Assembly (NCBI GenBank): GCA_944388965.1
Contig: CALXKL010000010.1
Span: forward strand, 1-64,000
Direction of reading: 5' to 3'
Source of the DNA: an uncultured Spirochaetales bacterium
Lineage (GTDB): Bacteria > Spirochaetota > Spirochaetia > Sphaerochaetales > Sphaerochaetaceae
DNA: 64,000 nt
The stretch's first letter is position 1, and every line of letters begins with the position of its first letter. This document shows, in pieces, positions 49,971 through 64,000 of the stretch. A program made the position numbers and the translations under genes. The notes beneath the pieces are model-generated. The model was given only the letters and a program-made list of their open reading frames with translations, did not search any database and was not told the DNA's origin.

Positions 49971-50075
49971 GCCAAGTATGAATCATCGCACAAACATGCG
50001 CTCTTGTTGAATAAGACAGGACAGGGGAATTGAGGTTAAAACGGAGGAAATCAGGCTGTCACCATGCTGTTCTTC

Positions 50076-50204
50076 TGGTGTAGCACTGGTGTAGCACTGG
50101 TGTAGCACTGGTGTAGCATCTGGTGTAGCATCTGGTGTAGCATCTGGTGTAGCATCTGGTGTAGCATCTGGTGTAGCATCTGGTGTAGCATCTGGTGTAG
50201 CATC
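50076..50204. repeat. Minisatellite of 11- and 12-base units
   Basis: Three perfect 11-base copies of TGGTGTAGCAC (50076-50108) are followed by eight perfect 12-base copies of TGGTGTAGCATC (50109-50204). The two unit types differ by one inserted base and one substitution. The array lies 106 bases upstream of the CLC gene, between it and the TPR-like gene. Confidence 0.95.
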
Positions 50205-50242
50205 GCTCATTTCCCTCTGATGTTCCGCATTTTTCCATTGAT

Positions 50243-50281
50243 CATGAAAAGGCAAGGGACCCTGTTCCCAAGGCCCCTTGC
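50243..50281 (-). terminator. Terminator after the TPR-like gene
   Basis: GCAAGGG (50252-50258) and CCCTTGC (50275-50281) form a stem; on the minus strand it is followed by CCTTTTC. It lies 28 bases after the stop of the TPR-like gene. Confidence 0.7.
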
Positions 50282-50308
50282 AGTATTCCATCCATTATTC
50301 CAGGTCGA

Positions 50309-53099: not shown

Positions 53100-53831
53100 A
53101 TGAGACGTGCACTTGCGTCTGTTCTTGTTCTGCTTTTCATTTCGTCCGCGCTGATGGCATACCAGCTGTCGCCCCTGAACGTGACCTACGCACCGACGGG
53201 TGCCGACAGCGCCAAGGTGTACACGATCACCAACGACTCCGACTCGCCGATCGCCATCGAGGTCACAGCCGAACAGAGGATAATCGACCTTGACGGCAAC
53301 GAGGTCAACCAGGACGGCTCCGCGTATTTCTCGATCCAGCCGTCAAGGATGATCATCCCCGCAGACACCACCCAGCTTGTGAGGGTGCAGTACCGCGGCC
53401 CTTCGACCGTGACCCGCGAACTCTCGTTCAGAATCGTCGCGGAGCAGATCCCGATGCCGCGTGGTGCGCAGGAGGCCGAGTCCGGGCAGATGATCAGCTT
53501 CCTCTTCGTGTATTCGACAAGCGCATACGTCAAGCCTTCCAGAATCGTCGAGAGCGTGTCGACATCCGTCTCGAGGAATGATGAAGGAAAGCTCGAGGTC
53601 ATCCTGGAGAACACCGGAAGCGTCCATCAGATGCTCAACAGCCTGTCCATCACGTTGCATGGCGATGACGGCAGTTCCTATGTGCTCACCGAGGACGAGC
53701 TTGCTCCGGTCTCCGGCAAGAACCTGCTCACCAACAGCCGTCTGAGGACCGTGATCGGGATTCCTGCATCGCTTAGAGGGGCATCCGTCATCACGGCGGA
53801 TGTCAGCTACGACTTCTCGTACTCGAACTGA
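53100..53831 (+). CDS. Periplasmic pilus-assembly chaperone (PapD-like)
   Basis: The 243-residue product has a signal peptide (MRRALASVLVLLFISSALMA) and two immunoglobulin-like domains. The first ends with the family's RVQYRGPSTVTRELSFRIV and AEQIPMPRG segments, which correspond to the chaperone G1 strand and the YRL-x-x-x-E-x-P linker of fimbrial chaperones. The second domain (about 125-243) is beta-rich. It should stabilise pilin subunits in the periplasm by donor-strand complementation and hand them to the usher encoded next. It is the first gene of the operon. Confidence 0.82.
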   Translation: MRRALASVLVLLFISSALMAYQLSPLNVTYAPTGADSAKVYTITNDSDSPIAIEVTAEQRIIDLDGNEVNQDGSAYFSIQPSRMIIPADTTQLVRVQYRGPSTVTRELSFRIVAEQIPMPRGAQEAESGQMISFLFVYSTSAYVKPSRIVESVSTSVSRNDEGKLEVILENTGSVHQMLNSLSITLHGDDGSSYVLTEDELAPVSGKNLLTNSRLRTVIGIPASLRGASVITADVSYDFSYSN

Positions 53832-53860
53832 CAAAGGGTCGCGATTGAGGGAAGCCGACC

Positions 53861-56800
53861 ATGTCAGGGAAGGGAAGTAGGAGCAGGACTCCTGAGATTC
53901 TCATACTTATCTCATCTGCCGCGGCGTTCGTGCTGACCGTCGTGGCCTGTCTGTGTGCAGACGAAGTCGGCAGAGCGGGTACCGCCGTCATGGCCATATC
54001 GGCCCTGGCCTGTGCGCTGGTGTCGGCGAACATGATGGTACATGCTGGAGGATCTGCTGCCGGAGGACTGCTGGTCACTGTCCTGCTGATCTGCATGCTG
54101 GCATTCGCCTTCTCATACATACTCCATTATCTCTTTACCCGACCAGGCGAGGAAGCCATCCCTGCAGTGGAAGAATCGAAGGTTGCGGAAGATGCCGTAC
54201 CTGCGGATGCACAGCGGGAGCAGGAATCCACTGCATTGGATACCCGTGAAGAAGAGAGTATCTCCACTGCAACGGAGGACATGACAGAGGAAACGTCAAC
54301 GGAACAGGAGACGATTTTGCAGGACATGGATGGAGAAGACATACATGTCCTGGCAGAGTCCGGAGAAATCGATACGCTCCCTGGTTACGGAGAAGACGCA
54401 CAAGAGACATCCGGGCAGGAGCCTCAAGCCGGACTCTGTGAAGATGCCGTTCCTCCAACCAAGTCTGAAGACGAAGAACAGCCCGGCGCAATCGTCGCCG
54501 ATGTTCCCGATGCACCATCAGGACTCTTTGCCACTACCATGGTTGAAGGCGAAGAAGATGAAGAACAGCCAACGGCTTTGGAAGAAGATGATGTCGAGGA
54601 CTTCGGCATATACGTCGACCCATATGCCGACGATGATTTCTGGGCGAGCTTCTATATCGCAGGCCAGGATGAACTCGTGCTGGAGGACGGCATCTATTAC
54701 ATGTCGCTCTACATAAACGACGTCAACACAGGAGTCATATCCACTCTGATGGAGGGTGGAATCGCATCGCTGTCCACCTCCGAGCTTGAAGACCACACCT
54801 ATGGCACCCTTACGGACGAGGCCAGAAGCCGTCTTTTCAACGAGAGGGGAAGCTACATAACGCTTGACGAGCTGGAGCAGGTCGGTGTCCAGACCAGACT
54901 CGACAGCACTGCATACGAGGTGTATCTGACCTTCGACCCACATGACATGCCGGTTCAGATCCTCAGCATCAGGGGCAGCTCCAGAAGGATGGTCAACAGG
55001 CCGATCTCCGGTGGAATCGAGGTCGATCCGGCCGTATTCACGTTGATATCCCGCCACAGCCTGTCAATGGGATTCGACGACCTCAGACGGGATGACGTGA
55101 TGTCCGGATTCTGGGGCTACTTCTCCTCTACCAACAGTGGACGGTTGTACAATGTCGACTTCGACTTCTCCTTCGGCTTCCACTTCACGGCGGACTCGTT
55201 CGACTTCTCGAATCTTACATACAGCTTCCATCGCGACTTCCCGGATGCCATGATGCGTCTGCAGTGGGGCATGGTCGGCACATCGCTCCTGTCCCCGTCG
55301 GGAACGGGAATCGGAATACGATTCGACAAGAGCCTGTCCTATTCCAACGACAGGACGTCCAACCGCAGCCATACGGAGCAGCTCGTCGTTGTCGAGAAGA
55401 CATCCGATGTCGAGGTGTTCAACGAAGGACGCTCGATTTTCAAGAGGACGCTGTCTGCCGGAATGTACAGACTGCAGGACTTCGTTCTCTATTCCGGTGC
55501 AAACAGAATCCTAATCCGCATCTCGCCTCTTGACGGCTCGCCTGTCAGGGAGATCGAGTTCGATGTCCTCTATTCCTCCTCCCTGCTTGCACCTGGAGAG
55601 GCGTATTACGGCGCCTCCCTTGCCTTCAGCAGAAGACTGACGGACAACAGGGTGGAAAAGTCAGATTCCGCATTCTCGCTTCCGCTGTGGAACGACAGGA
55701 GAATAGACTACGACTTCGCAGACGTCGTCCTGAGCGCATACGTCCGAGCCGGTCTTACGGAGAGGACGACGATGAATGCGACAATTGCATTGCAGAACAG
55801 GCCAACAGAGCTTTCCCTGTGGGGTCCGAACGCCTCTCTTGCAATGGAGTTCACAAACGTGAACATCCTTGGCAATTCACGTCTCTCGCTCACTCTCGCC
55901 GAGAGAAGCGACGAGAGTGGCGACTTCACGTTGCCCACGCTGAATGCGAACATCGGCCATCAGGTATCCACGGACATGAGATGGCTTAGTTCGCTCAGCT
56001 TCGGAGCATCCTGGACCAACCCGTCCAACTGGAACTTCGAGAACTCGAACTTCATCTCGTTCAACGCCGGAGTCGGAGGCGGTTTCGGTATCGTCGGCTG
56101 GAGTCTTTCGGCCTTCGGCGGCTTCGATATAAGCGATCCTACGATCTGGTCATGGAGTACATCTGCAAGTGTCAGTGTGAATCTGGGCAGACATGTCTAT
56201 GTGTCCGGCTCTCTCAATGCAAGCGGTACGAACGACATCAGACCTGAGATCTCCGGAAGAGTCAGCGCCAGCCTGAGATTCGGAGGTGTTAGTACAAGCG
56301 CCAGTACTGATTTTGAGAACGTTTCGCTTAGGTTCTCCGCCGGTGGAGGACGTCATTCGCTGTCAGGCAGCATCAATGGTTCCAACATTCTCGATGTGGA
56401 TACCTGGAACATGAACGCATCCTATTCCTATGGTGGAAGGAGAATCGCGGCAGGTGTGAACATGAACTCGTCCCAGCTCTTCGACAGAGTGGGGCTCTCT
56501 GCGAATCTGTCGACCTCCACGGTCTTTGCCGACGGTCTGTTCGCAATCGCATCCAGCATCCCGTCCAATTTCCTGCTGGTCAGCCAGAAGGGGGCGCTCA
56601 AAGGCAATGACCTGTCCATAGGCACTCCCGGAACCTCTTCGTTCGCCGAGACGCCGACCACGTTCGGTACGGCCTTGTACACGGGACTGCCGAGCTATGG
56701 AAACACGAGTCTCATGGTATACAGCTCCGGAAGCGACCAGTTCTCGGTGGCCCAGTCGCTTGCCGTCAATCTCACAGCCTCGGATATGAAGGGATATGTT

Positions 56801-57235
56801 CTCAGGATGGAGGCGGAGGACAGCTTCTCCGCTTCAGGCATGGTGTACCTGCCTGATGGAAGCCTGTGGCTCAATGGATCTTCTCCACTCTATTCGGTCA
56901 TGAATGATGGCAATGGGAATGTGACGACGACAGCGACCGATTCATATATCTTCACGGACAGCGATGGTCGTTTCGTCGTCTCCCAGCTGCCTGCCGGAAC
57001 ATATGGATTCGATGTCCCGTATGAAGGCGGATGGCTGCTATACATCTTCCCGGTCAGTGATGATCCGGATGCCTTCTCCATGCTCCAGATGATGGGAGAG
57101 CCGGCAGAATCCGATTCATCGACATCGCTTCCCGAACCCTACATGGAATCCTACGTCTATGAAATGGACGAGATCATATCCTCCCAGCAGTTCTTCGAGC
57201 TGCTTTATCCCGAAGCGATGGAGGTGGCCGTATGA
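53861..57235 (+). CDS. Usher-like outer-membrane protein with N-terminal membrane domain
   Basis: The product is 1,124 residues. Residues 264-380 resemble the usher N-domain (GIYYMSLYINDVNTG, RMVNRPISGGIEVDP); then comes a long beta-barrel region with the usher plug-like segment DVEVFNEGRSIFKRTL, RLQDFVLYSGANRILI and LLAPGEAYYGASLAFSRRL, and a C-terminal FTDSDGRFVVSQLPAGTYGF typical of usher ends. What is odd is the start: instead of a signal peptide it has three transmembrane helices (about 12-33, 40-62, 64-92) and an acidic, low-complexity linker (about 96-258). A fused frame is unbroken, so this is a real fusion. It overlaps the next gene by four bases. Confidence 0.78.
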   Translation: MSGKGSRSRTPEILILISSAAAFVLTVVACLCADEVGRAGTAVMAISALACALVSANMMVHAGGSAAGGLLVTVLLICMLAFAFSYILHYLFTRPGEEAIPAVEESKVAEDAVPADAQREQESTALDTREEESISTATEDMTEETSTEQETILQDMDGEDIHVLAESGEIDTLPGYGEDAQETSGQEPQAGLCEDAVPPTKSEDEEQPGAIVADVPDAPSGLFATTMVEGEEDEEQPTALEEDDVEDFGIYVDPYADDDFWASFYIAGQDELVLEDGIYYMSLYINDVNTGVISTLMEGGIASLSTSELEDHTYGTLTDEARSRLFNERGSYITLDELEQVGVQTRLDSTAYEVYLTFDPHDMPVQILSIRGSSRRMVNRPISGGIEVDPAVFTLISRHSLSMGFDDLRRDDVMSGFWGYFSSTNSGRLYNVDFDFSFGFHFTADSFDFSNLTYSFHRDFPDAMMRLQWGMVGTSLLSPSGTGIGIRFDKSLSYSNDRTSNRSHTEQLVVVEKTSDVEVFNEGRSIFKRTLSAGMYRLQDFVLYSGANRILIRISPLDGSPVREIEFDVLYSSSLLAPGEAYYGASLAFSRRLTDNRVEKSDSAFSLPLWNDRRIDYDFADVVLSAYVRAGLTERTTMNATIALQNRPTELSLWGPNASLAMEFTNVNILGNSRLSLTLAERSDESGDFTLPTLNANIGHQVSTDMRWLSSLSFGASWTNPSNWNFENSNFISFNAGVGGGFGIVGWSLSAFGGFDISDPTIWSWSTSASVSVNLGRHVYVSGSLNASGTNDIRPEISGRVSASLRFGGVSTSASTDFENVSLRFSAGGGRHSLSGSINGSNILDVDTWNMNASYSYGGRRIAAGVNMNSSQLFDRVGLSANLSTSTVFADGLFAIASSIPSNFLLVSQKGALKGNDLSIGTPGTSSFAETPTTFGTALYTGLPSYGNTSLMVYSSGSDQFSVAQSLAVNLTASDMKGYVLRMEAEDSFSASGMVYLPDGSLWLNGSSPLYSVMNDGNGNVTTTATDSYIFTDSDGRFVVSQLPAGTYGFDVPYEGGWLLYIFPVSDDPDAFSMLQMMGEPAESDSSTSLPEPYMESYVYEMDEIISSQQFFELLYPEAMEVAV

Positions 57236-57942
57236 AGCTTAAGCAGAAAGTCATCAGCCTTTCCATTCTTTTTACCTGCATGTTCATGACCGGAGTTTCC
57301 GCTGCTGACAGTCAGGAGCTGGTGATCAAGGCATATAAGATTGCTAGAAGCGATCAAAAAGGCATCACGGAATTCGTCGTCACGGATGCCCTTGCTGATT
57401 TCGATGACCTGGACAAGATTTCGGATACCAGGAATGAAATTATCCTGGACAGGCATATCGGTACATATCTTGGTCGTATCGAGAAGCTTGATGACAAGGC
57501 GTTTTCCGAGCATATCGTGTTCTCTGTCAGAATAGCAGGAGCTGGAACTTCTTCGTATACTGGTACTTCCTCTTTGGAGGAAGATGATACTGACCAATAT
57601 CAGGTGACAATGACCTTTTCACCTTTTGTCTATGGAGATAATGGTGTGACATCTACCTTGGATGCATGCTATCAGCTTGGAAACATCACAGGCATATTCG
57701 AAGCAAACAGCTCTTCGACCCATGGTTCTGAAACGATTACTATGACCGAAGGAACTGATTATGTTGCCAATTCAGGCTCCTTGTCATTCAACTGGCAAGT
57801 CACTACGAATTCCGGTTCCTTATCACAATGGACGGTGCGTGCTGCTGTCGCCATGACAATCGGTGAAGATAGTTACAACAACTGTACCCAATACGGCAAA
57901 CATTCCGCGACCGTTACTGTCAAGTTGGAGGCCGTCAGATGA
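57232..57942 (+). CDS. Secreted pilin-like subunit 1
   Basis: The 236-residue product begins with a signal peptide (MKLKQKVISLSILFTCMFMT, cleaved near VSAA). It is beta-rich with many Ser, Thr and Gly and ends in HSATVTVKLEAVR, like a pilin's final strand. It has two cysteines (ACYQLG and YNNCTQ) that could form a disulphide. Its start overlaps the usher stop (ATGA) and its end overlaps the next gene, so assembly with the usher is implied. It does not share the Trp core motif of the later subunits. Confidence 0.6.
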   Translation: MKLKQKVISLSILFTCMFMTGVSAADSQELVIKAYKIARSDQKGITEFVVTDALADFDDLDKISDTRNEIILDRHIGTYLGRIEKLDDKAFSEHIVFSVRIAGAGTSSYTGTSSLEEDDTDQYQVTMTFSPFVYGDNGVTSTLDACYQLGNITGIFEANSSSTHGSETITMTEGTDYVANSGSLSFNWQVTTNSGSLSQWTVRAAVAMTIGEDSYNNCTQYGKHSATVTVKLEAVR

Positions 57943-58595
57943 GAAAAATCCATCTGATCATTCTTCTTATCTTTGTCCTTGCAAATGTCAATGCAGCGTA
58001 CGTGCATGAGACCACCAGGCATTTTGACCTCCAGGCAGGATATGGCGCAACCTCGTCAATCAACATCACTCCGATTCCGGCCCAGAGCCAGTCATATGTC
58101 GTCGGAATGCCTTTCAGTATCGAAGATCCGATGGTCACCGACTCAACGGGATTTGGGCGCCAGATTGCTACATTCACTTTGCTAAGCAATGTCGATTTCA
58201 ACATAATTATCGAACCTGCTGCGTCATACGATGGGAAAATGCGTCATGTGGATGCGAAAGGAGAGCCTGTAATGAATGAAGATGGCTCATACGAGCATGA
58301 AGGTCTGGATTACATCCTTGAATTCCGGTATCTGCTTGGCTACGTGGGTGAAGGCAATACGCAAGATTCTCGTGAAGGTGAATTTACATATGAATCCAGA
58401 ATTGTAACTAAAACTATTTCGGATTTGACCATGGGATACACCGGAGAGGGAAACGCTTTCATCGGTACGGCCAATGGAGCCATCTTCTTCAGATTTGACG
58501 ATAAAAGCTCAGGCATGATCGAAAACCCAAATAACACGCTTCCAGCTGGTGACTACATGGCTCATGTGAAGATAACTCTGGAGGACAAGAAATGA
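57939..58595 (+). CDS. Secreted pilin-like subunit 2
   Basis: The 218-residue product has a signal peptide (MRKIHLIILLIFVLANVNA) and a beta-rich mature part. It ends with TLPAGDYMAHVKITLEDKK, the G-x-Y-x-A-x-[VL] strand ending seen across this gene cluster. A VTDSTG segment and two long charged loops lie in the middle. Both ends overlap neighbouring genes by four bases. The role within the fibre is unknown. Confidence 0.6.
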   Translation: MRKIHLIILLIFVLANVNAAYVHETTRHFDLQAGYGATSSINITPIPAQSQSYVVGMPFSIEDPMVTDSTGFGRQIATFTLLSNVDFNIIIEPAASYDGKMRHVDAKGEPVMNEDGSYEHEGLDYILEFRYLLGYVGEGNTQDSREGEFTYESRIVTKTISDLTMGYTGEGNAFIGTANGAIFFRFDDKSSGMIENPNNTLPAGDYMAHVKITLEDKK

Positions 58596-59863
58596 CCAGA
58601 AGAACCATATTCGTTTTCCTCCTTCTCCTGTTCATCTGCTTCAATTTGATGGCGGTCGCCCATGTCGCCATAGCTCCGGAAACCGGTGCCTATGGAGTCA
58701 ATATGGCCAGCTCTAAATATCGTGGAAACGAACACAGCGGAAACAATTTCTCGTGGATCAAAGGTACGGGTGAACCTGATAATCCGACATTCGATCAGCT
58801 TACTGGTGTACAAAGCAAACAATGGTATCTTGACCAGCATATCATCGGTCTTGGTGGTGTTTATGATCTCGAGTCGTCTCAGAAAAACTCGAATACGAGA
58901 TATACGGTCACGGCATACTGTGCCAATGGATTCAACTTCAAGTCTCAGAGCAATCCGAACATCGTAAGACCTTTCGAAATACTGATTGTCGCAAGATATG
59001 GAGAAGAGAAAACGGACCGTGTAGAAGCACTCAAGTCTTCCGGACAGTCTGAGACATTCTATTATAAGGGTGCTAAGGACTATCTCTGGTTCGACCTTGT
59101 GCTTGCTCTGCCCCTTGATGAAGATCCGGTACCTGGCTCGAATTACATCAAGGCAGACGGTCAGACTTACTCCCTCGTACAGACAAATGATTATACCGCT
59201 CTGGTGACCATCAACGTGACGGCTTGGGATGAGAATGGAGTCATCGGCACGGATTCGATCAGCATACCGTTTTCCGGGTATTTCAATGGGCAAACCGAAG
59301 GAAAGGGTGATGACAGACTGAGCCTGATGTTCACTCCTAATGCGAATGCCGGCAATCTTAATATCCAGACCCAGCATTCTCTTCCGATTCCGGTTGGCAA
59401 CATCGACTTCATGCTCGATGCCGAATATACGGAAAGGAAAGACGGTTGGGGAAACGATATCTCCGATAGATATGATCCTGGCTATGTGAAGATATTCTTC
59501 TCGTCCAGAAATGAACCCGATGATGCAAATACCCAGCCTTTCCGGTTCGTCCATAGTTCAGTAGGTGATTCTGATCCACTGACGAATTACAATTCCATCG
59601 GATACGAGATAGTCGTTAGCGGTTCGAATTCAAGTACTTCCTTTTCCGGAGACGATCATCTGGTCAATGGTGATGTCGAGAATGCAATCATTCCGGAAAA
59701 GGTGACAAGTAATACTTCGCATCAAGGCGCACGTGAATTCTTCGAGTATTCCGGGACAATCAACGTCATCATCGATGAACCGACGACGATTATGCAAGAA
59801 GGAGATTATCACGACACAGTATATGTCCATGTCGTTACGGATCATGACAAGGCGGGAAAATGA
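58592..59863 (+). CDS. Large secreted pilin-like protein, possible tip adhesin
   Basis: At 423 residues it is the largest protein of the subunit cluster. It has a signal peptide (MTRRTIFVFLLLLFICFNLM) and a long mature region rich in Asn, Ser, Gly and Thr, with the closing IMQEGDYHDTVYVHVV matching the terminal strand of the others. Tip adhesins in chaperone-usher fibres are two-domain and larger than the shaft pilins, so an adhesin role is a reasonable guess, not shown. It overlaps its neighbours by four bases at each end. Confidence 0.55.
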   Translation: MTRRTIFVFLLLLFICFNLMAVAHVAIAPETGAYGVNMASSKYRGNEHSGNNFSWIKGTGEPDNPTFDQLTGVQSKQWYLDQHIIGLGGVYDLESSQKNSNTRYTVTAYCANGFNFKSQSNPNIVRPFEILIVARYGEEKTDRVEALKSSGQSETFYYKGAKDYLWFDLVLALPLDEDPVPGSNYIKADGQTYSLVQTNDYTALVTINVTAWDENGVIGTDSISIPFSGYFNGQTEGKGDDRLSLMFTPNANAGNLNIQTQHSLPIPVGNIDFMLDAEYTERKDGWGNDISDRYDPGYVKIFFSSRNEPDDANTQPFRFVHSSVGDSDPLTNYNSIGYEIVVSGSNSSTSFSGDDHLVNGDVENAIIPEKVTSNTSHQGAREFFEYSGTINVIIDEPTTIMQEGDYHDTVYVHVVTDHDKAGK

Positions 59864-59874
59864 GGAGGCAAGGA

Positions 59875-60450
59875 ATGAGAAAAAGCATAATGGCAGTCAT
59901 TATTATCCTACTCTTTATTTCGAATGCCTACGCTGCCGAGGAAACGAAGTCTCTAGCCGTATCAACCATTGTACCGGTTGACTATGGAGTTGTGTTCCCT
60001 GCAGACGGACTGAGACTGGACCGGCTGTATCTTGCATTGGAGGCTGCTGGTGGAGACAGGAACTATCTAACGACAGACGATACGACAATCCATACCGGTC
60101 TCATAACGGATCATCCGGATGGAATGGTGTTCCACTTCCTCTTCTACGGGAACCTGGCAACAACATATCAGGTGATGATAACTGCGGATGCTGGAAGCGG
60201 ACTTGTTCTCCAGAGTGGGGACGACACGTTCACCATACCTGTGGATGTCTCCTTCCAGGAGCCGGAGGAGGAGAACGACAACGTCGTCCTGGAGATTCTC
60301 GATGGGAACACGGCGATGCTCCAGGTGGATACGGCCGGAGCCGTGAGCGCACTTGACGTGCTTGAGCTGAGAGTGAAGTGGGAGGATTCTCCTGAAATCA
60401 TAGCGGGAGATTACATGGCGGATCTGAGTCTTGAACTCACGACGATGTGA
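59875..60450 (+). CDS. Secreted pilin-like subunit 4
   Basis: The 191-residue product has a signal peptide (MRKSIMAVIIILLFISNAYA) and a beta-rich mature part ending in IIAGDYMADLSLELTTM, the cluster's common final strand. It has FHFLFYGNLATTYQVMI where other members have the Trp motif. ATG 59875 was chosen because GAGGAGG lies just upstream, whereas the ATG at 59860 has none. Confidence 0.6.
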   Translation: MRKSIMAVIIILLFISNAYAAEETKSLAVSTIVPVDYGVVFPADGLRLDRLYLALEAAGGDRNYLTTDDTTIHTGLITDHPDGMVFHFLFYGNLATTYQVMITADAGSGLVLQSGDDTFTIPVDVSFQEPEEENDNVVLEILDGNTAMLQVDTAGAVSALDVLELRVKWEDSPEIIAGDYMADLSLELTTM

Positions 60451-60469
60451 CGAGGAGGAGCTGGTGATT

Positions 60470-61051
60470 ATGAAAAGACTTGTCTTCTCTATGATTGTGA
60501 TGACAGTAGGCCTGCTTGCCTGTTGGGCTTCAGAACCTCTGGAGTCCAAGACTTTAGAGGTGGCGCTGGATCTGAGTTCTGAGTCGACGATCACATGGTA
60601 TGATTTCGGCTTCTCGTCAACTCAGGTCGGCAGCGGGAAGGAGGAGACTCCTGTCGCTTATGAGCCGACGGAAATCGATCATATAGCGCTTGTCCTGGAA
60701 TCAGGTGCAGATGCTGACAGAATTGCCGAGAACACTGACGGCTCCCTATGGGTGTATTGGCATATCACATCAGGATCCGGGCTGGAGATTTCCATTGCTG
60801 GTGATGGTGATATGAAGAAGGAGGTTCCAGAATCCGAGGGGGAGAAAATCGGTTGGAACATCGCAATCGATTCTGCAGATGGAAAGGGCAGTGGGGAAAC
60901 GCAAGTCGTATTCACACATGACCCTTCTGAAAACAGTGTAGGTGCAGATGGATCCAAAAAAATTCTTCTGGCTACAGAAGATCTCACCGGGCTGACTCTT
61001 TCGCCTGGTGAGTATACTGCGAATCTAAAACTTTCAATTGTCAAAAAATGA
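60470..61051 (+). CDS. Secreted pilin-like subunit 5
   Basis: The 193-residue product has a signal peptide (MKRLVFSMIVMTVGLLACWA). The mature part contains the shared core WVYWHITSGSGLEISI and ends with LSPGEYTANLKLSIVKK. The signal region contains a Cys at residue 18, which could be a lipidation site, but the context (LLACWA) is not a perfect lipobox. The ATG at 60470 has GAGGAGGAG upstream. It begins the series of clearly related paralogues. Confidence 0.65.
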   Translation: MKRLVFSMIVMTVGLLACWASEPLESKTLEVALDLSSESTITWYDFGFSSTQVGSGKEETPVAYEPTEIDHIALVLESGADADRIAENTDGSLWVYWHITSGSGLEISIAGDGDMKKEVPESEGEKIGWNIAIDSADGKGSGETQVVFTHDPSENSVGADGSKKILLATEDLTGLTLSPGEYTANLKLSIVKK

Positions 61052-61062
61052 GGAGAAATGAT

Positions 61063-61746
61063 ATGAAGAGAACTCTTTGTCTAATGGCTCTCGTCTTGCT
61101 GATCGTTTCGGCATTGTCTGCAGGTGAGGAAACCACAAGCCCTTCCTATAGCGGTGGTATAGATAATGCCAATGCCAAAGCTACTACTCAGGTTTCGTTG
61201 AATATCGGAGGCGGAGATGCAAGTGCTTCTAAGATCGAACTGTACTTCTTGAAGGCTCAGGATGAGAACCAGAGTGCTACGTCTCAAGCTCCAGACAATA
61301 CGAAATTGCAACCTTCTGTTGCTCTTGCCTTCAATTCCACCCCGAATGTTGCCGATAATACGGCTGACGGCTCTGGCGTCTATGCGTGGTGGAGAGTGCT
61401 GTATGGTGGAAATCTCTATATCAAGCTTGAGATTGATAAAGCGCTTTCGAAAGATGAAGAGACCGAGACTATCGACTGGGAAGCTGCAGCGACGGTTTTA
61501 TCTCCCGCTACGGATGCCTCTGAGGGGGATGGTCTGAGCACCACTACTGTTAAGAAGACAGTCTATTCAAAGGTAGGAAGTGGAAATAAGATTGAAACCT
61601 TCGCTACTCATGTTGGAACGAAAGGCGTTCTGTCGTTTGGGCAGGCCAGGATCGATATCAAGACGGATGCAAACGAGGATTTTTCCAAGATTCCTGCCGG
61701 TACATATTCTGCGAATCTTACCCTGATTTGCACAACAGAAAACTGA
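61063..61746 (+). CDS. Secreted pilin-like subunit 6
   Basis: The 227-residue product has a signal peptide (MKRTLCLMALVLLIVSALSA), the core motif YAWWRVLYGGNLYIKLEI, and the ending KIPAGTYSANLTLICTTEN. A middle loop is long and rich in Ser and Thr. The start at 61063 has AGGAGA six bases upstream. It is related to the flanking subunits. Confidence 0.68.
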   Translation: MKRTLCLMALVLLIVSALSAGEETTSPSYSGGIDNANAKATTQVSLNIGGGDASASKIELYFLKAQDENQSATSQAPDNTKLQPSVALAFNSTPNVADNTADGSGVYAWWRVLYGGNLYIKLEIDKALSKDEETETIDWEAAATVLSPATDASEGDGLSTTTVKKTVYSKVGSGNKIETFATHVGTKGVLSFGQARIDIKTDANEDFSKIPAGTYSANLTLICTTEN

Positions 61747-61779
61747 ACAATGGAAGATAGAAAATAGGAGAAAAAGAAA

Positions 61780-62376
61780 ATGAAGAAGTTGATTATTGTT
61801 GTTTTGATTGCGGCGGTTTCTGTCGTAAGCATTTTTGCTGCTACACAGGGTAGTGCTTCAGGTACAGTCGGGGATAATCCGGAAGCTTATACTGTCGTAA
61901 CACTTGACTTGACTGATGGTGGTAAGTCGTATGTTGAACTGTGGTTTGACAAAGAAGCGTCTACCAGTATCCCAGATACTCCTAAGGCTACGGTCAATCT
62001 TGGATTTTCTGACGACGCCACTAGTGCAAGCAATTCTGGAGATCCTCTTTACGCTTGCTGGAATATAGTCTCTGGAGATTCAATTGACGTTGAGCTTTAT
62101 CTGACAGGTCCGCTTACAGCGAATGGTAAAGATATCGAATGGACTGCAACCTGGAAAAATGATAGTAGTGCAAATGTCACGATTTCATCTAATGAAGTTA
62201 CTGGTGATTCTCTAGAAGGTTCGGATGTACTTAAATCATATACTGATACAACAGGTAATCCACTTAAGAAGACTGATAGCAAACAGATAACAATTTCTAC
62301 TACCACTATTGATTATACGGATATCGTGCCCGGTACATATACGGCCAATCTGTATCTGAGATGTAAGACTAACTGA
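61780..62376 (+). CDS. Secreted pilin-like subunit 7
   Basis: The 198-residue product has a signal peptide (MKKLIIVVLIAAVSVVSIFA), the core YACWNIVSGDSIDVELYLTG and the ending IVPGTYTANLYLRCKTN. It contains two cysteines, one in the core motif (YACW) and one at the final strand (RCKT), which may pair. Low-complexity Ser-Asp-Gly stretches and a more AT-rich codon choice set this gene apart from the housekeeping genes earlier in the window. Confidence 0.68.
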   Translation: MKKLIIVVLIAAVSVVSIFAATQGSASGTVGDNPEAYTVVTLDLTDGGKSYVELWFDKEASTSIPDTPKATVNLGFSDDATSASNSGDPLYACWNIVSGDSIDVELYLTGPLTANGKDIEWTATWKNDSSANVTISSNEVTGDSLEGSDVLKSYTDTTGNPLKKTDSKQITISTTTIDYTDIVPGTYTANLYLRCKTN

Positions 62377-62408
62377 TTTTCCTCAAAGGTTTTCTGGAGG
62401 CTGAAGTC

Positions 62409-62996
62409 ATGAAGAGGTTTATGATCCTGTTACTTCTCGTATTTCCGGTGTGTCTTGTATCTGGTGAAGTGTCGTTTTCGACTACTGATTCCTCTGATTC
62501 TGAGGCAATCAAGGCCGCCGATGCATCGGTGGATACGGTACTGGACCTCTCTGGCTTCAGCTTTGTCAGCCTTGGGATCTATGACGAGTCTGATTCCACC
62601 GATCCTATCGAAGAGGTTCCGCTGGAACTGATTCGGGATGCCGAGGGGGCAATCAAGGCGATTGAAGACGTAGTGATCAGATATGCTGTCAAATATTCCG
62701 GGACCTTTGATCTCATGTTGCAGGCTGGAAATCCAGTGGAAGGAAATACTGGGGATGTGATTCACTGGAGAGCCTGTGTACAAGATGTAAACGGGAATAT
62801 GAAATGGACTGGGGAAGGCCAGGTTGGAGGCGAAGAGTATTCGGCAATTGTCATACACAGCCATGAGAAAACAGCTGGGAACTATGACGATGGGACAGTC
62901 TCCGTCAGCCTGGAGACCGTTGCTCTTTCCAGTCCAGACCAGAAGCCTGCAAAGCTTGAAGAGCCGCTTAAGGTGTACATCTTTCCGCGGGGGTAG
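62409..62996 (+). CDS. Secreted pilin-like subunit 8 (divergent)
   Basis: The 195-residue product has a signal peptide (MKRFMILLLLVFPVCLVSGE) and a beta-rich mature part. Its core reads IRYAVKYSGTFDLMLQAGNP, in which the Trp of the paralogues is missing, and its ending KLEEPLKVYIFPRG lacks the Tyr-x-Ala pattern. It is therefore a more distant relative or a specialised subunit. A good ribosome binding site (CTGGAGG) precedes the ATG. Confidence 0.6.
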   Translation: MKRFMILLLLVFPVCLVSGEVSFSTTDSSDSEAIKAADASVDTVLDLSGFSFVSLGIYDESDSTDPIEEVPLELIRDAEGAIKAIEDVVIRYAVKYSGTFDLMLQAGNPVEGNTGDVIHWRACVQDVNGNMKWTGEGQVGGEEYSAIVIHSHEKTAGNYDDGTVSVSLETVALSSPDQKPAKLEEPLKVYIFPRG

Positions 62997-63002
62997 TGAT
63001 TC

Positions 63003-63563
63003 ATGAAAAGACGTTTCTGCCTCATCTTCATTCTTGTGTCTGTCTTGATGACTTCGTTTGCAGTTGATTCGGAGAAGAACTATGAAGTCAAGTTCGACAC
63101 GCGACAGTATGCTCCGTTTTATCTCGACTTCGGATTTCGCAAAAGTGGATCAGAGGCAATTGAAAACGGTGAGGTCGACTTTTCTAGCATGACACTGGGG
63201 GAGGATCAGGCATCTGCCGTGCTGCAGCTTGAGGCTTACTGGAATATCATCTCCGATAAAAAGATTGAACTCTCATTGGAGATCGGTGCTCTTGTAAATG
63301 GAGAAGGTGAGTCCCGCAAGGAACTGGACTGGACACTTGAGTGGACTGAAGGAAGCGGAAGAATAGTACTGGACAGCTCAGTTGATGATAAGAAAACAGC
63401 TGTGATTCACACCCATCAAGGTCAGCAATACGACTATGATCAAGATTCAGTAGCCCTCAGAGGGTATGTGAATGTAGAGTATGGATCGGATGATTTCAAG
63501 AATATGGCTCTCGATACATATCGCGGTACGTTGACCTTGAAGGTGACTTCTTACGGAGGGTGA
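63003..63563 (+). CDS. Secreted pilin-like subunit 9
   Basis: The 186-residue product has a signal peptide (MKRRFCLIFILVSVLMTSFA), the core EAYWNIISDKKIELSLEIGA followed by LDWTLEW, and the ending ALDTYRGTLTLKVTSYGG. It lacks cysteine in the mature part. It is followed after one base by the next related gene. Confidence 0.65.
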   Translation: MKRRFCLIFILVSVLMTSFAVDSEKNYEVKFDTRQYAPFYLDFGFRKSGSEAIENGEVDFSSMTLGEDQASAVLQLEAYWNIISDKKIELSLEIGALVNGEGESRKELDWTLEWTEGSGRIVLDSSVDDKKTAVIHTHQGQQYDYDQDSVALRGYVNVEYGSDDFKNMALDTYRGTLTLKVTSYGG

Positions 63564-63564
63564 T

Positions 63565-64000
63565 ATGAAACGGACGGTCCTAGTGCTTATCATCATTATT
63601 TCTATTGTCCACCTGATTCCTGCTTCGGTAGTCATCAATTCGGATGAAAGTTGTGGGCAGGCAACGGCGAATCTGCTTCTTGTCATGGATGAGGTCAAGA
63701 AGGAGAACTTCGGCTTATCCTCTGAACCTGTTGATATCAACAACTCTCCAGTCCCGATAACGGCAGTAGAACTTGAAGGCCAGCTTTCTTCTAATGGTCA
63801 GACCCTGATCGGCTCGAAAACCGTATATGCCTATTGGGATATCGCTTCAGTGGACAAGGTGAGGCTTTCCGTCTCGATTAATAGCCCTATGAGTGGAGAA
63901 ACAGGAAAGGTGAATCTTCACTGGTGCTGTTATTCCGACGATATAGATGATGTGAGACATTATGTCGGGTATGCGAATAATGGCGACTATCTTGTCGATC
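63565..64000 (+). CDS. Secreted pilin-like subunit 10, cut by the window end
   Basis: The reading frame opens with an ATG at 63565 preceded by CGGAGGG and gives at least 145 residues without a stop. It begins with a signal peptide (MKRTVLVLIIIISIVHLIPA) and contains the family core VYAYWDIASVDKVRLSVSIN. The 3' end lies beyond the window, so the gene is partial and the cluster continues. Confidence 0.65.
   Translation, partial: MKRTVLVLIIIISIVHLIPASVVINSDESCGQATANLLLVMDEVKKENFGLSSEPVDINNSPVPITAVELEGQLSSNGQTLIGSKTVYAYWDIASVDKVRLSVSINSPMSGETGKVNLHWCCYSDDIDDVRHYVGYANNGDYLVD

Follow-up and report, generated by a model that had tools for sequence, protein, structure and literature searches.

A divergent chaperone-usher operon with a predicted membrane-anchored usher in a gut spirochaete of the family Sphaerochaetaceae

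The operon analyzed in this study almost certainly encodes a divergent chaperone-usher pathway of the Sphaerochaetaceae by which a surface fibre of many subunits is built. The DNA examined (hereafter the window) covers bases 1 to 64,000 of a contig of 68,710 bases, from a genome of 2.1 Mb. The first-pass annotation of the window had guessed a spirochaete, and the host is indeed a gut spirochaete of this family. The chaperone, the usher fold, the pilin-like fold of one subunit, and the helices and linker of the usher were recognized in the sequence or in models. Our full explanation, which joins this pathway with a tethered usher, is quite probable. Most knowledge of chaperone-usher machines comes from Proteobacteria, and the annotation had regarded a spirochaetal one with so many subunits as unusual. 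It is no rarity within its own family, where this usher is present in 104 of 139 genomes; the most unusual feature is the predicted transmembrane domain at the N-terminus of the usher, which had passed unremarked.

Operon layout, chaperone and subunits

The operon begins at position 53100 with a PapD-like chaperone gene, followed by the usher gene and, inside the window, ten subunit genes, nine of them complete and the tenth cut at the window end (Table 1). It extends beyond the window: the tenth subunit gene stops at contig position 64206, and two more follow, bringing the total to 12. The annotated series of at least ten secreted products placed head to tail was thus confirmed. A GntR-type regulator gene lies directly after the last subunit gene, and a convergent MATE transporter lies beyond it. 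Gene order and content recur in operons of related genomes; the close relatives in which this operon type turned up are draft or metagenome sequences. An orthologue of the GntR-type regulator closes the other operon of the same genus (L039); none was found in the other operon loci compared. Elsewhere in the window, a minus-strand ORF at 49983-50291 consists mostly of an Asp-Ala-Thr-Pro repeat, that is, a short in-frame tandem repeat.

Two details of the annotated layout were not upheld. The genes had been described as mostly overlapping, but only three of the 11 junctions overlap, by 4 nt each, and the remaining ones are gapped by 1-33 nt. A single promoter and the lack of a terminator had also been claimed; consensus scans gave 15 promoter-like sites (11.3 expected) and 9 terminator-like sites (7.6 expected), both at chance level, and so lend this no support. 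Most operon genes are preceded by a Shine-Dalgarno-like stretch. Judged by the layout only, the whole operon is likely transcribed as one unit.

Table 1. Positions of the operon features. Coordinates refer to the window unless the contig is named.
Feature	Position	Strand	Evidence or remark
Periplasmic PapD-like chaperone, 243 aa	53100..53831	+	PapD_N match; relatives; invariant residues
Outer-membrane usher with N-terminal membrane anchor (predicted), 1124 aa	53861..57235	+	AF2 model, Foldseek, Pfam in relatives
Codons for three predicted inner-membrane helices, usher residues 10-92	53888..54136	+	AF2 helices, hydropathy/charge, purifying selection
Acidic disordered linker, usher residues 93-260	54137..54640	+	pLDDT, composition
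Subunit s1	57232..57942	+	orthologues at same position in related operons
Subunit s2	57939..58595	+	orthologues
Subunit s3, long, 423 aa	58592..59863	+	orthologues of 420-485 aa
Subunit s4	59875..60450	+	orthologues
Subunit s5, paralogous	60470..61051	+	A3 family
Subunit s6, paralogous	61063..61746	+	A3 family
Subunit s7, paralogous, modelled	61780..62376	+	model pLDDT 84; CfaB, Caf1, PapG pilin domain matches
Subunit s8, paralogous	62409..62996	+	A3 family
Subunit s9, paralogous	63003..63563	+	A3 family
Subunit s10, paralogous, cut at window end	63565..64000	+	A3 family
Subunit s11	contig 64217-64813		past window end
Subunit s12	contig 64810-65475		past window end
GntR-type regulator	contig 65476-66261 (= L003 2477-3262)		directly after last subunit

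The annotated chaperone proved to be a PapD-like two-domain chaperone: Pfam PapD_N matched it with 29.8 bits (cut-off 23) and also matched 13 of 15 relatives. P81 and R111 are invariant among the 15 chaperones aligned. The sole PDB sequence match of the chaperone was EcpB of the alternative pathway, in which R111 aligns with the Arg of the motif YYRIV; the chaperone profile, searched against the PDB, gave no match. Archaic and alternative chaperones are marked by a conserved Arg in strand F1 (PMC4654587). The chaperone analyzed here has this Arg and a family-wide Pro, the latter assigned by position only. Since the conserved R111 aligns with the EcpB Arg, the chaperone would be placed with the non-classical (archaic or alternative) pathways. 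These pathways have been described for Proteobacteria, Cyanobacteria and Deinococcus-Thermus (PMC4654587), not for spirochaetes.

Each of the ten subunit ORFs in the window starts with a signal-peptide-like N-terminus. Orthologues of s1 to s4 and of the last two subunits occur in order in related operons, and the number of paralogues between them varies. The paralogous A3 family has six members in the window operon and leader-like matches only elsewhere in the genome. Size and position alone make the long subunit s3 a candidate tip adhesin. Pfam searches with the subunits gave no match, and spore-coat-U type subunits (archaic sigma pathway) were absent from Pfam results for 28 subunits. The G+C content of the subunit genes is 46.6%, against 58.2% in most of the remaining window; that of related operon loci is 39-49%.

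In the model of s7, a low-confidence N-terminal coil (residues 21-48) is followed by a beta-sandwich (49-198). The top seven Foldseek matches were chaperone-usher pilins (E 2e-3). Most chains listed by VIA were also chaperone-usher pilins (Z 5.6-7.2), with unrelated beta-sandwiches scoring nearly as high. The aligned range finishes at the C-terminus of the pilins, that is, at the same last strand. The annotation had suggested looking for incomplete Ig folds among the subunits; the one subunit modelled came out in its favor, showing, at moderate scores, a pilin-like Ig-fold behind an N-terminal extension. Taken by themselves the fold scores of s7 are weak; the pilin reading is strong because of the gene context. 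In addition, a C-terminal motif of the pilin last-strand type was found in 65 of 83 operon subunits; none of the 38 other genes in the window had it, nor did more than 5 of 292 control genes. Eight of the 12 subunits of the window operon carry it.

Comparison with the archaic and alternative pathways (Csu, ECP, CFA/I; PMC4654587, PMC9452303) showed that the chaperone Arg is shared and that the s7 fold is closest to CfaB, EcpA, CsuE and CsuA/B, among others. The operon differs in the helices and linker added to the usher, in subunits without a Pfam match, and in subunit number (12, versus four in Csu and two in ECP).

The usher fold and its N-terminal helices

The AlphaFold (AF2) model of the usher was built from 37 sequences (pLDDT 74.7). 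It contains an N-terminal domain (about 260-370), a plug (about 506-571), strands up to 890 and C-terminal domains up to about 1106. By our own count from the DSSP string, with borders of our own, the barrel has 24 strands, six before the plug and eighteen after it. The first 19 Foldseek matches in the PDB were all ushers (FimD/PapC; best E 2e-31). In VIA, ushers reached Z values of 18-21 across as many as 673 residues, and the highest-scoring barrel of any other kind did not exceed 15.7. The annotation had staked its usher on a barrel and plug, and both are present in the model.

Pfam Usher (PF00577) matched 13 of 37 usher relatives (best 6e-8) and PapC_N matched one relative weakly; the window usher alone scored below the Pfam Usher threshold. 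Pfam and PDB sequence searches with the single usher or the usher profile retrieved no usher, the matches from one such search being low-complexity ones from the helices and linker, and the profile gave no useful match to the single K-12 EcpC sequence. The usher core profile did match the compact ushers of other spirochaete families (probability 100, E 3e-45, 709 columns), and its plug region matched E. coli K-12 FimD (E 2e-4). On the strength of the model and its fold matches, the identification of the large protein as an usher is firm. Its barrel, its plug and its domains at both termini are common to classical FimD and PapC, with which it shares 11-14% identity; the N-terminal anchor and linker are not in FimD or PapC.

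In place of the short cleaved signal peptide found just before the N-terminal domain of an ordinary usher, there are helices and a linker of about 170 residues. The helices in the AF2 model span residues 10-31, 33-61 and 66-92. The linker contains 54 D+E against 5 K+R, and its pLDDT is mostly below 40. Among operon-type ushers, the hydrophobic segments before the usher domain mostly number three, otherwise five or seven; three of these ushers reach just two at the threshold used. An odd number is what is needed to place the usher in the periplasm. Three-segment ushers have on average 3.3 K+R before the first segment and 0.75 and 2.8 in the loops, followed by a strongly acidic stretch, a positive-inside pattern expected for a cytoplasmic N-terminus and an exported usher. 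Pair-type ushers (described below) have one long hydrophobic segment, and compact ushers of other spirochaete families have an ordinary leader without the helix-linker part. Two separate ORFs (G054:C5:143096-143947 and G035:C9:17007-17513) match solely the helix-plus-linker part of the usher profile; they could be anchor paralogues that stand alone, or an artefact of composition.

We favor the prediction that the usher of this operon stays in the inner membrane and is not released. It is rather unlikely, though it deserves serious consideration, that the pathway is an ordinary one in which signal peptidase frees the usher, the helices and linker being an over-long discarded leader of no mechanical role. 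The linker evolves fast, and most members have possible -3/-1 sites near the last helix, in a test that separated ushers poorly from secreted controls. Polytopic leaders of three to seven helices, in odd numbers and with a conserved charge pattern, are however not signal peptides. The hydrophobic stretches measure 21-23 residues; those of chaperones, subunits and compact ushers measure 14-17. The helix segment is also mostly better conserved than the linker: in four close pairs its dN/dS is about 0.16-0.23, compared with about 0.2-0.7 for the linker, although in the pair L116/L109 it is as variable as the linker. The low values indicate that the helices are translated and constrained, and a Shine-Dalgarno-like stretch is present at the upstream start of the usher.

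The nearest precedent found for such a tether is PelB of Pseudomonas aeruginosa, in which an uncleaved N-terminal inner-membrane helix and an outer-membrane barrel in one chain are proposed to bridge both membranes (PMC12141448). PelB differs in exporting a polysaccharide, in having one helix and a TPR scaffold rather than a disordered linker, and in its unrelated barrel. A non-exhaustive literature search on inner-membrane-anchored ushers, ushers in Sphaerochaeta and chaperone-usher systems in spirochaetes found nothing relevant, which is weak evidence. The idea that a tether is needed because the peptidoglycan cross-linking apparatus is missing was dropped, since the genome encodes a penicillin-binding transpeptidase.

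Distribution and the chaperone-usher pair

Pfam Usher passed its cut-off in two of 393 spirochaete genomes, neither of them Sphaerochaetaceae, whereas the profile built here detected the Sphaerochaetaceae usher in 29 of the same genomes. Annotation pipelines therefore probably overlook the usher of this family. In the sampled genomes of the phylum outside the family, the profile matched in three only, weakly and through compact ushers. The compact operons of other Spirochaetia families (L077-L081) are alike in having chaperone, usher and subunits, with usher homology over the full length; they differ in that their ushers are 790-840 aa long and begin with an ordinary short leader, and in having one to a few subunits. 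These compact ushers mostly fall under the Pfam Usher cut-off. The contigs of relatives were scanned with the chaperone as query, the usher alignment being too diverged; the named relatives are Ca. Ornithospirochaeta, Ca. Aphodenecus, Sphaerochaeta and Pleomorphochaeta.

Two locus types occur in the family: the many-subunit operon, and a chaperone-usher pair whose usher has a single N-terminal helix. Most usher-carrying genomes of the family hold the pair. The window genome carries both, its pair being on a separate contig (C11; L004 11712-15827) beside a V-ATPase operon, an arrangement that many genera of the Sphaerochaetaceae share. In a quick tree, the operon type formed one clade (SH-aLRT 100) nested in the pair type. 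We concluded that the pair is the older form, from which the many-subunit operon arose once. The window usher grouped with operons of another genus (99), not with the other own-genus operon, L099. This grouping and the G+C contrast fit a transfer, and the many-subunit operon has probably moved between genera.

A pair without substrates was considered and rejected, as pilin-like genes are located elsewhere in the same genomes. A subunit-profile search of pair-type genomes gave unlinked clusters of secreted pilin-like genes, with at least one cluster in all eight near-finished genomes tested of the Sphaerochaeta-like genus g16, and 23 of 24 such unlinked genes carry the C-terminal motif. The pair is thus probably complete as a pathway, its subunits being encoded in trans. 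Four secreted pilin-like genes on contig C17 of the window genome (L192 6521-9186) are likely trans-encoded substrates of its pair; the flank of this cluster resembles that of a larger cluster in L186. In four Sphaerochaeta-like loci (L187, L189, L193, L194), pilin-like genes adjoin a conserved cluster resembling ExbB, ExbD, a TonB-like protein and a secreted protein of about 640 aa.

The pair lies directly upstream of V-ATPase genes in about 30 named loci of many genera, which raises the question of whether it works with the adjoining V-ATPase, for instance through an ion gradient or in assembly, the window operon deriving from such an energised system. We consider this improbable. Such adjacency may be a chance inheritance, in several genera the pair comes without the ATPase (L082, L085, L089, L092, L139; the remaining loci stop at a contig end), and in the window genome the operon and the ATPase sit on different contigs. 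In two many-subunit operons (L126 and L130), V-ATPase genes were observed upstream of the chaperone.

Proposed assembly and significance

A secreted beta-protein system of another kind, such as an outer-membrane export barrel for soluble proteins without a fibre, would agree with the facts that no fibre is known and that the subunits have no Pfam match, but it is most improbable, as a barrel, plug, N- and C-terminal domains, a PapD-like chaperone and pilin-like subunits are the exact chaperone-usher set.

For the chaperone-usher pathway that we prefer, the assembly steps are taken from established knowledge of such pathways; donor-strand exchange, the fibre, the uncleaved tether and a role in adhesion are what we infer for this operon. 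The subunits would reach the periplasm via Sec, where the chaperone would cap every incompletely folded pilin. The usher N-terminal domain would receive the chaperone-subunit complexes, and the usher would join the subunits by donor-strand exchange through its outer-membrane pore. Its three N-terminal helices (up to seven in relatives) would remain in the inner membrane and the flexible acidic linker would cross the periplasm, so that one chain would bridge both membranes. Such a tether would fasten the base of the fibre to the inner membrane, with the usher kept near the site of subunit emergence. We lean, with some reserve, toward an usher that is one chain through both membranes, its fibre base fixed to the inner membrane and possibly regulated from there, and its ancestral form tied to a V-type ATPase operon.

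The new elements of this system would be an usher with a predicted tether, an ancestral pair linked to the V-ATPase, and a family-wide distribution among spirochaetes. Ushers are generally regarded as free outer-membrane pores. A tethered usher, if true, would alter this picture, and it provides a natural setting in which to ask whether cells can hold or sense fibre gates from the inner membrane. A search of eight Sphaerochaetaceae genomes found no flagellin gene, so that attachment by fibres is plausible. The present analysis extends chaperone-usher fibres to a spirochaete family, for which they may be a main means of attachment.
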